Positions 5,697 through 37,704 of a stretch of 64,000 bases of DNA are shown one piece after another. The translations under genes were made by a program, and so were the position numbers. The DNA comes from Chloroflexota bacterium (GTDB lineage: Bacteria > Chloroflexota > Dehalococcoidia > Lucifugimonadales > UBA826), in assembly GCA_002722155.1 (NCBI GenBank), contig PBKS01000016.1:1-64000 (forward strand), in the 5' to 3' direction. The notes below the pieces were generated by a model. It searched no databases. It saw only the letters and a list, made by a program, of their open reading frames with translations, and had not been told where the DNA came from. Every line of letters starts with the position of its first letter. Positions within the stretch are counted from its first letter, which is position 1.

Positions 5697-6617
5697 TTAC
5701 TTAGCTGTTTGTGGAGGTGAGGGGTTAACTAAGCCTTGAGTCAGATGCTGTGGAGCTAACTCCCTTAGTTCCTCTACTTCCCATCTTCCTTGTTTGAAAA
5801 TTGTTCTAGTTCGTCGAGGCAGAGATAGTTTGGTGATCGCTCCACCATACACGAGGAAAGTTTGACCATTAACGCTAGCTGCTTGATCAGAAGCTAGATA
5901 CGCTACGAATGGTGCTACATCTTCTGCTTCCATCTGTGTGGTTGGTGGTGCTGCTTCCCTATCTTCCGGCCTATCTTCCCGTAATTGTCTAGCAGCATCA
6001 GGTACCGATTGAGTCATTCTTGTATTAGCTCTAGGGCAGATAGAATTTGCAGTGACCCCATATCGACCTAGGTCCTTTGCTGCCACCTTGGTAAAACCTG
6101 CGATCCCAGATTTAGCTGCGGCGTAATTACCCTGTCCAGTGTTTCCTATCAAGCCGGATTCTGAGGCAAATGTTATTATCCGTCCACTTCTTTGCTGACG
6201 ATACAAGATAGAAGCGTACTTACATATTGTAAAAGTACCTTTCAAATGCACCCTGATTACGTCATCCCATTCTTGCTCAGTCATATTAAAAATCATTCTA
6301 TCTCGCAATATTCCTGCGACTGTTACTACAATATCTAACTTGTCGTAGTTATCCAGAGCCGATTTAACGATGCTTTCTCCCCCTTCCATTGTTGATATAT
6401 CGGTATAGTTGGGAGTAGCTTCTCCCCCGGCTGATTTAATCTCTTCAACCACTTGTTCTGCTGGGGTATTAGAATTGCCCTCTCCGTCCAAGGCGGCACC
6501 GATATCATTCACGATGACCTTAGCTCCTTCCGAAGCCAGCTGTTTTGCTACACCTGCACCAATGCCTCTGCCAGCTCCTGTGACTATCGCTACTTTACCG
6601 TCTAGGTAATTCGCCAT
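5697..6617 (-). CDS. Short-chain dehydrogenase/reductase (second of a tandem pair)
   Basis: A 306-residue SDR that clearly duplicates its downstream neighbour. It shares TGAGRGIGAGVA, the GGEATPNYTDISTMEGGE region, RDRMIFNMTEQEWDDVI and the catalytic GNYAAAK. The start at 6617 is preferred over a frame that is open upstream, because MANYLDGKVAIVTG aligns with the family start and AGGAGG lies 6 bases upstream. The tail QGRWEVEELRELAP matches the C-terminal extension of the paralogue. Differences in the substrate loop (RPEDREAAPP against SGITAQSAVA) suggest the pair use different acyl or alcohol substrates. Likely same transcript as 4718-5647. Confidence 0.9.
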   Translation of the reverse strand: MANYLDGKVAIVTGAGRGIGAGVAKQLASEGAKVIVNDIGAALDGEGNSNTPAEQVVEEIKSAGGEATPNYTDISTMEGGESIVKSALDNYDKLDIVVTVAGILRDRMIFNMTEQEWDDVIRVHLKGTFTICKYASILYRQQRSGRIITFASESGLIGNTGQGNYAAAKSGIAGFTKVAAKDLGRYGVTANSICPRANTRMTQSVPDAARQLREDRPEDREAAPPTTQMEAEDVAPFVAYLASDQAASVNGQTFLVYGGAITKLSLPRRTRTIFKQGRWEVEELRELAPQHLTQGLVNPSPPQTAK

Positions 6618-6774
6618 TTTTTTCCTCCTGAATTTCGTTCGCGAGACAAGAATAGTACTTGCCATTAAAGCGTAACGTCCATTGTGCCACAATTGAACAT
6701 GTCTTGTCATAGTTGGTTTGTTTAAAGGTTTCTAGACTAGAATTAGTAAAAAATGTGGGGTAGCTGTTAACACA

Positions 6775-9643: not shown

Positions 9644-10834
9644 ATGGCACAGACTAGGGAAGCTGCAATTGTTGGAATACATGAATATCCTCTGAGGGTA
9701 GCGCCAGGTGTCAGTGCCTTGCAAATCAAGGCCGCTTCCGCCTCTAAGGCGCTTGAAGATGCCGGACTATCTTGGCAGGACGTTGATGCGGTTTATGACA
9801 ACGGGTCTCATCAGAACATAGGTGGACTCGGGATTTCGGAATACTTGGGTCTAAACCCACGGTTGATTGATAATACTAGCGTTGGTGGAACTTCCTATGA
9901 GTTCCAGGCCCATCACGCGGCTACCATGATAGCTGCCGGCAAAGCGAATGTGGCTTTATTGACCTACGGATCAACGTCTCATTCTGATCGCAGGGCAATT
10001 GGCACCGCAGGGGCAACCGGTCAAGGTTCTCCCACTCCATTTAACAATATGGAGGATCCGTGGGGGATGACGTTGATATCAGGATACGGAATGGTTAAGG
10101 CTCGCCATATGCATCAATACGGTACCACCAACGAACAATTTGCCGAGATCTCTGTGGCCACTCGCTATCATGCGATGAGGAATCCTGAGGCAGTTAAAGC
10201 AATGACGGATCTTGAGTTCGTAGGTGTTAATGAGATTACAACACAAGATGTTCTGGATTCTAGAATGATCGCTTGGCCTCTACATTTGCTTGAGTGCTGC
10301 ATGGTTTCAGATGGTGGTGGGGCAGTAATCATAGCCTCTAAAGAAGTCGCGAGAAATTGTAAAAAACCACCAGTATGGATCATTGGCGGGGCGGAAGCTA
10401 CAAAATATAGAGAAAATGGCGGTGATATAACTGTTAGCGCTGGTGGACAGTCTGGCCCTAGGGCTTTTGAGGATGCTGGGGTAACTCCAGATGAAATAGA
10501 TGTCCTTATGGCATACGATTCCTTTTCGATAACTGTCATGTGTATGATCGAAGATTTGGGATTTTGCAAAAAGGGGGAAGGTGGAGATTATGTCAGTCAA
10601 GGAATACTGAAATTTGATCAAAAGGGAGGACCTGCTCTTAATACCGATGGTGGAGGCCTTTCCTCCAATCACCCAGGTGAAAGAGGTATTTTTCTATTGT
10701 TGGAAGCCGCCCGGCAGTTGAGAGGGGAGTCAAATTCCCAGGTGGAAAATGCCAAACTTGCTGTAGCGGTAGGCAACGGTGGCCAATTGGGAGCTAGGCA
10801 CGCCACTTCGCCGACCATTCTTGCAGCCGACTAG
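9644..10834 (+). CDS. Thiolase-like protein (SCPx/Ltp2 group) lacking the nucleophilic Cys
   Basis: A 396-residue thiolase-fold protein of the SCP-x/lipid-transfer-protein group. The start MAQTREAAIVGIHEYP, the motif NTDGGGLSSNHPGERG (with the conserved His) and the C-terminal VGNGGQLGARHATSP are all in place. Where true thiolases carry the acylated Cys it reads TSVGGTSYEFQAHHAA, with no Cys. Members of this type, such as Ltp2 in steroid side-chain breakdown, act as retro-aldolases together with a DUF35 partner. The next gene, 19 bases downstream, is exactly such a DUF35 protein. The ATG has a GGGGA site upstream. The function is inferred to be acyl-CoA aldol cleavage or a related step, not Claisen thiolysis. 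Confidence 0.85.
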   Translation: MAQTREAAIVGIHEYPLRVAPGVSALQIKAASASKALEDAGLSWQDVDAVYDNGSHQNIGGLGISEYLGLNPRLIDNTSVGGTSYEFQAHHAATMIAAGKANVALLTYGSTSHSDRRAIGTAGATGQGSPTPFNNMEDPWGMTLISGYGMVKARHMHQYGTTNEQFAEISVATRYHAMRNPEAVKAMTDLEFVGVNEITTQDVLDSRMIAWPLHLLECCMVSDGGGAVIIASKEVARNCKKPPVWIIGGAEATKYRENGGDITVSAGGQSGPRAFEDAGVTPDEIDVLMAYDSFSITVMCMIEDLGFCKKGEGGDYVSQGILKFDQKGGPALNTDGGGLSSNHPGERGIFLLLEAARQLRGESNSQVENAKLAVAVGNGGQLGARHATSPTILAAD

Positions 10835-36006: not shown

Positions 36007-36078
36007 GCGGAAGTGGCTCAGTGGTAGAGCATCTCCTTGCCAAGGAGAAGGTCGCGGGTTCGAATCCCGTCTTCCGCT
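36007..36078 (+). tRNA. tRNA-Gly (anticodon GCC)
   Basis: A complete 72-base cloverleaf. The acceptor stem pairs GCGGAAG with CTTCCGC, the anticodon stem is TCTCC/GGAGA with loop TTGCCAA (anticodon GCC), and the T arm is GCGGG-TTCGAAT-CCCGT. The discriminator is T. CCA is not fully encoded (TCCAT follows the stem). It probably shares the promoter at 35836 with tRNA-Phe. Confidence 0.97.
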
Positions 36079-36091
36079 CCATACACCGCAG

Positions 36092-36508
36092 CTATGCTTT
36101 TTGGAATATAACTAGTGTAACTTCCTCTGTTACTTCATCAAAAGCGACAAACACCGGCATATCCACATAGACATCTTCAGGTTTGCACCCTACTATTCCA
36201 GAAGGGATCTTTGGCCCTTCATCTAATTCTACAATCGCATATATGTGACCATGCGATGACTGAAAGGATGGATGAACCGATTGGCGAACATGTGTGTATG
36301 AATACACCCTGCCGTTTCCAGACATTTTCTTCCATGTCAGGTCTTTAGAAAAGCAATTTGGGCAGACTTCCCTGGGATAGAAAAACAGGTTTGAACATGA
36401 GTTGCAGTACGGAATGATCAATTCTTTTCGTTTTGCGGCTTCCCAAAACGGCTTAGTTAATTGCTCATTAGCTGGTATAGGAATTGGTTTGTCATATGCT
36501 GAAGTCAT
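36092..36508 (-). CDS. DUF35 (zinc ribbon/OB-fold) partner of the second thiolase-like protein
   Basis: A 138-residue DUF35 protein with an N-terminal helix [17 protein letters not shown], a normal zinc ribbon ([18 protein letters not shown]) and an OB-fold ([34 protein letters not shown]). It resembles the copy at 10854-11276 but keeps the standard C-x2-C knuckles. It starts 26 bases after the TAG that would end the read-through form of the thiolase-like gene, a normal operon spacing. It should form a complex with that protein. Confidence 0.88.
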
Positions 36509-36534: not shown

Positions 36535-36591
36535 CTAAAGTGTGTTCTCGGACCCGAGAACCAGCGAGCACATTTCACTCGCTGTGCCCCC
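36535..36591 (-). other. Family-like 3' continuation of the thiolase-like gene after an in-frame TGA
   Basis: Directly after the TGA at 36592-36594 the same frame continues for 18 sense codons to a TAG at 36535-36537 and would encode GGTASEMCSLVLGSENTL. Together with the residues before the stop this reads LVNG-stop-GGTASEM, which is the usual NGxGG C-terminal motif of this thiolase group, as seen in VGNGGQLG of the intact copy. The full product would have about 389 residues, like the 396 of the paralogue. The next gene's spacing also fits the TAG as the original end. Confidence 0.75.
36544..36584 (-). repeat. Two adjacent perfect hairpins just after the TGA
   Basis: Two stem-loops lie back to back. 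In message sense the first has stem CAGCGAG/CTCGCTG with a 9-base loop (36584-36562), and the second has stem GTTCTCGG/CCGAGAAC with a 2-base loop (36561-36544). The first begins 7 bases after the TGA. No T run follows, so they do not look like a terminator. Structures placed just after a stop codon can promote read-through or recoding; whether these do is unknown. Confidence 0.7.
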
Positions 36592-37704
36592 TCAACCGTT
36601 CACCAGGCACAAATCACTTTTTTCTACTTGTCTTGAGCCCGCTTTTCCCATGATTTGCCGTGCCCCTTCGATAACGTGTCTAAACCCTCCTGCCAAGCCA
36701 GGCTGGCCTCCTGAGAGTTGACCCCCATCAGTATTTATTGGAAAAGTGCCTTTATATGTGGTGTCCGTTTCTTCATAAAAAGGACCAATTTCTCCTTTTT
36801 CTACCAAACCAGCATCTTCTATGCACATTGCCGCCAGTATTGTGTAACAGTCATAAAATTCTGCAAATTCTATGTCAGTAGGAGTATAGCCAGCCATTTC
36901 CAGCGCCCGTCTCACAGAATCCACAGCCGGGGTTTCCGTGAATTTATCTCTTTGCCAAATATTGGCTTCACCTTGCTTTAAACCTACTCCGAGTACATAT
37001 GCAGGTTTGTTTTTCATGTTTTTGGCACGTTCCGGTGTAGTGATGATTAGAGCGGCTGCTCCATCGCAAGGCATCACGGATTCAAGTAATTTTAGAGGTT
37101 CGTTTATATACCTTGAGTTTAATACGTCCTCTTTACTTATTGGTTGTCCGTTGAAAACAGCATTTTCGTTTTCCAATGCGTTATATCTTTGATCTGATGC
37201 CATTTTGGCTAGTTGTTCTTCTGTAGTGCCATATTCGTGAATATGTCTTCTATACATGAGACCATATCCGGTATTGGCCCCTGGAGCCATTCCGTGGGGT
37301 TCTTCCCATTCGGATCTTACACTCGGACCAGGAGTTCCCCGCCCAGCTGCTCGTCCTGCTCTCTCGGCATCCTGTCGAGAATTACCCATCACGACCAACA
37401 CTGTGTTACATATCCCACTGCTGACCGCAGAAGTAGCTACCATAGTAGCGGTTGCGCCGCTGGCTCCTTGCATCGATACTCCAGTTGCGAAATTTGGTTT
37501 GATGTCAAGATATTCTGCTACCGCAGGAGGGAGTGCAACTCCGTCAGTGACCAGGCCGTCGATGTCCTCTTTGGAAATACCGGCATCGGCTATAGCTAAT
37601 CCTGCCGCTTCGGCACACAAACCATACATACTTCGCCCTTCATGGATCCGCCTAGTTGGCACTTCTCCGATGCCGACGATGGCCCCTCTACCTCTAAGGC
37701 TCAT
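36592..37704 (-). CDS. Thiolase-like protein (SCPx/Ltp2 group), ended early by an in-frame TGA
   Basis: A 370-residue thiolase-fold protein that starts MSLRGRGAIVGIGEVPTRR after a strong AGGAGG. It lacks the nucleophilic Cys (the segment reads GVSMQGASGATATMVAT) and its second motif is NTDGGQLSGGQPGLAGG, with Gln where thiolases have His. This is close to the Ltp2 aldolase type. The reading frame ends with TGA inside the conserved C-terminal NGxGG motif, although matching sequence continues to a TAG at 36535. It is therefore a truncated gene, a read-through product, or a sequence error. The DUF35 partner follows downstream. The other copy of this pair (9644-11276) is intact. Confidence 0.82.
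   Translation of the reverse strand: MSLRGRGAIVGIGEVPTRRIHEGRSMYGLCAEAAGLAIADAGISKEDIDGLVTDGVALPPAVAEYLDIKPNFATGVSMQGASGATATMVATSAVSSGICNTVLVVMGNSRQDAERAGRAAGRGTPGPSVRSEWEEPHGMAPGANTGYGLMYRRHIHEYGTTEEQLAKMASDQRYNALENENAVFNGQPISKEDVLNSRYINEPLKLLESVMPCDGAAALIITTPERAKNMKNKPAYVLGVGLKQGEANIWQRDKFTETPAVDSVRRALEMAGYTPTDIEFAEFYDCYTILAAMCIEDAGLVEKGEIGPFYEETDTTYKGTFPINTDGGQLSGGQPGLAGGFRHVIEGARQIMGKAGSRQVEKSDLCLVNG

Follow-up and report, generated by a model that had tools for sequence, protein, structure and literature searches.

Gene locus and reading frame

The window, the whole 64,000-nt stretch of DNA analysed here, carries on its minus strand a gene for a thiolase-fold protein whose frame extends for 370 codons before a TGA interrupts an NG-x-GG motif. 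The coordinates of this and the neighbouring features are collected in Table 1. Past the TGA the same frame encodes GGTASEMCSLVLGSENTL, a family-like extension of 18 codons, and closes at a TAG ahead of a DUF35 gene. Two adjoining hairpins lie in this extension. The first, CAGCGAGU-GAAAUGU-GCUCGCUG, has 8 base pairs, one of them G-U, and the second, GUUCUCG-GGUC-CGAGAAC, has 7; no T run follows the two hairpins at the locus. The first-pass annotation had described the position of the TGA within its motif, the 18 codons leading to the TAG before the DUF35 gene, the placement of both stem-loops and the lack of a T run, and all of these descriptions were confirmed. Its remark that TGA is a normal stop elsewhere was also borne out, since TGA ends 9 of the 53 long ORFs in the window.

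The DUF35 neighbour is of the ChsH2 type by Pfam and was found directly downstream in 61 of the 73 loci with room to see it among those carrying UGA at codon 371 (termed Sec371 genes, after the predicted residue). Beyond DUF35, the flanking genes of a few loci (MFS transporters, a Na/H antiporter, a CoA-transferase and others) displayed no shared pathway. At window positions 36007-36092, a tRNA-Gly gene (plus strand) faces the DUF35 gene and ends 11 nt from its stop codon, with a tRNA-Phe gene beyond. A second thiolase-like paralog, at 9659-10765 on the plus strand of the window, has Asn at the position of residue 371 (VGNGG) and Ser at that of residue 286 (YDSF).

Table 1. Features of the thiolase-like gene and its DUF35 neighbour (window coordinates).
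Feature	Position	Strand	Basis
Thiolase-fold protein, residues 1-370, upstream of the putatively recoded UGA	36595..37704	-	ORF; Pfam; AlphaFold2 model; structure match
UGA codon, residue 371, predicted to be read as selenocysteine	36592..36594	-	Clade conservation; Sec machinery in genome
C-terminal tail, translated, 18 codons, residues 372-389	36538..36591	-	dN/dS, synonymous differences
Terminal stop TAG	36535..36537	-	Sequence
SECIS-type hairpin 1, 8 bp, begins 7 nt past UGA	36562..36584	-	Folding, conservation tests
Hairpin 2, 7 bp, loop GGUC; possible extension of SECIS region	36544..36561	-	Pairing counts, fold
Cys286 codon TGT in YDCY motif; equivalent to catalytic Cys304 of CtSal	36847..36849	-	Alignment
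Tyr284, equivalent to catalytic Tyr302 of CtSal; kept in 81/81	36853..36855	-	Alignment
Gln329, equivalent to Gln347 of CtSal	36718..36720	-	Alignment
Gln334, equivalent to Gln352 of CtSal; thiolase GHP-motif His missing	36703..36705	-	Alignment
Gly373, equivalent to oxyanion-hole Gly391 of CtSal and to Gly of CxG motif	36586..36588	-	Alignment
Gly80 at thiolase nucleophile Cys position; Gly89 in CtSal	37465..37467	-	Alignment
DUF35 partner protein (zf-ChsH2 + OB_ChsH2_C)	36092..36508	-	Pfam

Conservation of the two UGA codons

A search over 60 related genomes retrieved orthologs presenting 82-96% identity within the genus and family and 53-74% farther out which, when translated past the TGA, displayed the same codon and a matching tail wherever codon 371 was reached. 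A broader set of 148 distinct homologs, which includes distant paralogs, was assembled from a one-genome-per-species scan, a class-level search and added loci. Residue 371 is encoded by TGA in 81 of these and is Asn in 34 and Ser, Thr, His or others in the remainder, while seven fall short of the codon. All 81 distinct clade genes that reach the codon, from many independently assembled SAR202/Dehalococcoidia genomes, have TGA there, and neither TAA nor TAG was found at codon 371 in any of them. The seven other genomes of the genus, originating from different assembly projects, and further families present the same TGA, tail and hairpin; the comparison with related genomes that the first-pass annotation had recommended thus revealed all three to be kept across the clade. 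The named records with TGA371 belong to the SAR202 cluster, Dehalococcoidia or Chloroflexi, and the terminal stops of the clade genes are TAA (43), TAG (36) and TGA (2).

The nearest homologs outside the clade have Asn, Ser or Thr at position 371. No Cys variant was identified at this residue among near homologs, its one Cys counterpart being the CxG Cys of the distantly related classical thiolase, and Asn is found where Sec would be absent, in contrast to most selenoproteins. In a tree built without sites 286 and 371, the clade contains at least two exchanges between Sec371 and Asn371. Among genes of the genus, the tail displays a dN/dS of 0.02 and a synonymous difference of 0.23, compared with 0.61 in the body of the gene, which indicates purifying selection on a translated tail whose RNA is also constrained. 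Two divergent members (L220 and L231) have NT-U-RG in place of NG-U-GG, with a strong hairpin past the UGA. One record (L147, 6001-7185) titled Bordetella parapertussis (MAG) holds a Cys286/Asn371 member that is nested among Chloroflexota sequences, and its label is probably wrong.

A second in-frame TGA was observed at codon 286, within a YD-x-YT motif, in 36 relatives, where it is followed by a hairpin of its own; in the genus of the window this codon is TGT or TGC. Every UGA286 gene with a readable codon 371 also carries UGA371. In the same tree, the Sec371 genes show at least 10 switches between Sec and Cys at residue 286. Repeated exchange between UGA and Cys codons is the classical sign of selenocysteine. 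At four loci (L104, L105, L107 and L108) the Sec gene occurs as a tandem pair, and that of L107 comprises one Sec286/Sec371 copy and one Cys286/Sec371 copy.

Hairpins downstream of the UGA codons

The 60-nt fold at this locus has -22.9 kcal/mol (z of -2.8 against dinucleotide shuffles). When the 54 nt from UGA371 were compared with synonymous-codon randomisations of the same gene, Sec371 genes had a mean z of -2.0, as opposed to 0.07 for Asn371 genes, and values below -2 were obtained for 47% of Sec371 genes against 4-7% of control windows. Measured in one fixed register, the 371 stem is 72% paired in Sec371 genes and 67% in Asn371 genes, which does not separate the groups; as the register varies between lineages, a register-free hairpin score, with the loop placed about 14-23 nt downstream, was used. 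UGA371 and UGA286 scored 18.8 and 19.3, respectively, whereas Asn371 scored 14.6, Cys286 10.4 and the controls about 10.7. Part of the 371 hairpin persists in Asn371 genes. In hairpin 2, 67.5% of positions are paired in Sec371 genes and 43.3% in Asn371 genes. Compensatory AU/UA and GC/CG swaps were identified in the 371 stem (codon pairs such as GAG-TCG, GTG-ACG and GAC-TCG); the alignment illustrating them is a chosen subset of rows, and the stem-pairing percentages derive from unselected counts.

At codon 286 the synonymous-codon comparison of the following 54 nt gave only a weak signal (z of -0.32), a consequence of the small size of the hairpin and of the constraint that the peptide places on part of it. 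The informative test at this site is stem pairing in comparison with Cys286 genes, and the stem is 88% paired in UGA genes against 51% in Cys genes. The loop starts about 17-18 nt past the UGA at both sites (15 nt in the pairing preferred by the window's sequence), and the gene for a UGSC-family protein in the same genome has a hairpin at about 18 nt past its UGA, a spacing similar to those at UGA371 and UGA286. An Rfam search with the hairpin returned no SECIS family, only a chance match (E of 3.9); the case for a SECIS element therefore rests on the synonymous-codon and covariation tests. By these sequence-based tests, the conserved RNA hairpin just past UGA371 behaves as a SECIS element. 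The earlier suggestion that it sits where a bacterial SECIS would is upheld by its stability, its covariation and its weakening in relatives with a sense codon.

Selenocysteine machinery of the genome

The genome from which the window derives encodes a tRNA-Sec with anticodon UCA (64.2 bits, ARAGORN), SelA (539.8 bits), SelB (331.9 bits) and SelD. A genome-wide search for selA, selB, selC and selD had been advised at first pass, and all four components were located outside the window. SelD is itself the Sec form, with an in-frame TGA in SCAG-U-ASKL, and the UGSC-family protein likewise displays GD-U-GSC through an in-frame TGA. A standard gene call for SelD (G000:C25, locus L004, minus strand) would begin too far downstream, and the UGSC-family gene (G000:C21, locus L075 about 6210-6749, minus strand) adjoins a 340-aa ORF. 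In the class sample, selA was found in 250 of 393 genomes; among those bearing a Sec371 gene it was found in 25 of 29, and the remaining four all have tRNA-Sec, as judged by comparing the two lists. The selB gene (G000:C6:61128-67183) is flanked by a divergently oriented classical thiolase gene and by a thiolase-like gene, and a thiolase-like gene close to selB recurs in several relatives.

Fold and active-site residues

The protein matches Pfam Thiolase_C_1 (2e-44) and its AlphaFold2 model has a pLDDT of 90.7. The closest solved structure is the CtSal aldolase (PDB code 9myr, chain A; Z of 56.7 and 37% identity), followed by the Ltp2-ChsH2 complex (PDB code 6ok1; Z of 52.4) and archaeal thiolases. 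CtSal requires Tyr302 and Cys304, the latter proposed to be supported by Gln347 and Gln352; its Gly391 lies in the proposed oxyanion hole, and a Gly occupies the thiolase nucleophile position (PMC12329534). Each of these residues has a counterpart here (Table 1). Across the 81 Sec371 genes Tyr284, Gln329, Gln334, Gly373 and Gly80 are invariant, and residue 286 swaps only Cys for Sec. The set of Sal-type aldolase residues, consisting of the Tyr and Cys of YDCY and two Gln, is thus complete (Y284, C286 or Sec, Q329 and Q334). Thr389 of CtSal aligns with Sec371. The oxyanion Gln161 of CtSal corresponds to Ala143, with Gln at this position in only 2 of the 81 clade genes, suggesting that the reaction may differ from that of CtSal.

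In thiolases, the Cys of the CxG motif acts as acid/base and the amide of its Gly is part of an oxyanion hole (PMC6790690); according to a paper cited there, SCP2-thiolases require the Cys of HDCF. When the genome's own classical thiolase is aligned by profile, its CxG Cys matches residue 371 and the Ala of its NEAF motif matches residue 286; in HMMER alignments with an archaeal thiolase, residue 371 falls one position off the CxG equivalent. Sites 371 and 286 thus both lie where members of the thiolase superfamily have an acid/base Cys. The nucleophilic Cys of the thiolase CxS loop is missing, with Gly80 in all clade genes read there, and the His of the GHP motif is replaced by Gln334. Thiolase acyl-enzyme chemistry is therefore not expected, and with Gly at the nucleophile position the enzyme probably breaks or forms a C-C bond in a beta-hydroxyacyl-CoA.

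Proposed decoding and function

Taken together, the sequence comparisons make it very probable that the UGA inserts selenocysteine and that the gene is intact rather than a pseudogene. SelB, together with Sec-tRNA(UCA), would read the UGA as selenocysteine, directed by the SECIS hairpin located within the coding sequence just downstream, and translation would end at the TAG to yield a 389-residue selenoprotein. This protein would be a thiolase-superfamily enzyme of the Sal/Ltp2 aldolase type, working with the adjacently encoded DUF35 protein. Sec371 would stand where the thiolase CxG loop has its acid/base Cys, and residue 286, Cys here and Sec in many relatives, where the HDCF loop of SCP2-thiolases and the YDCY loop of CtSal have theirs. 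In the pocket geometry that we infer, residues 286 and 371 probably face the same pocket, forming a Se-S or Se-Se pair. The likeliest function, which we hold with roughly even confidence, is that of a Sal/Ltp2-like C-C lyase acting on acyl-CoA thioesters, a reaction and substrate that we infer from the active-site residues.

Selenium could contribute as an acid/base, through its low pKa, or as a redox-sensitive pair. In one reading, which we hold at a little under even odds, Sec would be a general acid/base, not redox, residue in the C-C bond chemistry of a SAR202 thiolase-fold lyase, with Sec at both acid/base-Cys positions of the superfamily (371 always, 286 often) and with 371 exchanging Sec for Asn rather than Cys. 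The competing view, which concerns function and leaves Sec insertion itself unaffected, is that the protein carries out redox catalysis, or is a lyase under redox control, through a catalytic selenenylsulfide or diselenide between Sec371 and either Cys/Sec286 or Cys379. Redox catalysis is the presumed role of most selenoproteins (PMC13188914), two chalcogen residues occupy the acid/base-Cys positions, and Cys379 is present in 63 of 81 Sec371 genes compared with 5 of 34 Asn371 genes, and it could be a partner. Its codon, however, is part of the hairpin loop, and its conservation may serve the RNA; the catalytic Tyr and both Gln of CtSal are invariant and point to acid/base chemistry, and a purely redox role would not tolerate the replacement of Sec371 by Asn at least twice within the clade. 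A redox role is possible but, on this balance, somewhat doubtful.

Alternatives to selenocysteine insertion fare far less well. Programmed readthrough, stimulated by the hairpin, could insert an ordinary amino acid such as Trp and yield two protein forms, which would be consistent with a conserved stem-loop, a translated tail and the lack of Cys alternates at 371 among near homologs. Against this, all 81 genes have TGA at the codon, with no instance of TAA or TAG, Cys codons alternate with UGA at the second site, Trp in the thiolase-like gene is TGG, UGA already serves as a Sec codon for SelD and the UGSC protein of this genome, and the hairpins past both UGAs and that of the UGSC gene are similarly spaced; readthrough is therefore very unlikely. 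General reassignment of UGA in the organism (of the code 4 or 25 type) would explain in-frame UGAs in more than one gene but was rejected from the stop usage in the window, and the internal UGAs were seen only at known Sec sites or at codons 371 and 286 in a genome with tRNA-Sec, leaving it with scarcely any probability. A nonsense mutation or sequencing error in one genome, compatible with the interrupted frame when that genome is viewed singly, was rejected as practically negligible given the TGA, tail and hairpin common to the other genomes of the genus and further families and the dN/dS of the tail. Having placed mutation or error first, readthrough second and selenocysteine, as speculative, last, the first-pass annotation had an order that is reversed by the conservation of the TGA, the Sec machinery, the SECIS-like behaviour of the hairpin and the UGA/Cys exchange.

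Novelty and comparison with known systems

The expectation that Sec at this site would be new was borne out, as no thiolase-like family is listed among the 119 prokaryotic selenoprotein families and subfamilies of a 2026 inventory (PMC13188914). Thiolase is not mentioned in the older selenoprotein surveys or in the deep-Sep paper, no NCBIfam model for the present family scored above its cut-off, and titles and abstracts of the open-licence literature revealed nothing relevant on selenocysteine with thiolase or SAR202. As far as searched, the gene would thus represent a new selenoprotein family and the first thiolase-superfamily enzyme with encoded selenocysteine, in which many members are predicted to present two Sec sites in the active-site region. 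SAR202 bacteria are abundant in the deep ocean, and the gene, being widespread in SAR202, would tie their carbon metabolism to the supply of selenium. Annotations of these genes probably stop 19 or 104 residues short, because the usual search for Sec/Cys pairs would miss residue 371. Since residue 286 alternates between Sec and Cys and residue 371 between Sec and Asn, the contribution of selenium to a lyase is directly testable.

The proposed selenoprotein shares a UGA codon and a SECIS element with the known bacterial selenoprotein families, which include no thiolase-fold family, and differs in that Sec371 has no near Cys homolog (PMC13188914). The UGSC-family and SelD selenoproteins of the same genome also have an in-frame UGA and would use the same machinery, although they are unrelated to the thiolase-like protein and contain a single Sec. 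SCP2-thiolase and the biosynthetic thiolases adopt the same fold, and their CxG and HDCF acid/base Cys positions correspond to 371 and 286, but they retain the nucleophile Cys and the GHP His where Gly and Gln are found here. The TcLtp2-ChsH2 aldolase (PDB code 6ok1) belongs to the same superfamily branch and has a DUF35 partner, while differing in its YDHF motif, its second catalytic Tyr and its lack of Sec. The bile-acid aldolase CtSal of Comamonas testosteroni (PDB code 9myr; PMC12329534) shares the thiolase fold, the YDCY Tyr and Cys, the two Gln residues and a Gly in the nucleophile position. CtSal likewise works with a DUF35 domain, which is fused to the MaoC hydratase in CtShy, in contrast to the separate gene observed here; it contains no selenocysteine, presenting Thr389 at the position of Sec371, Cys304 at that of residue 286 and the oxyanion Gln161 in place of Ala.
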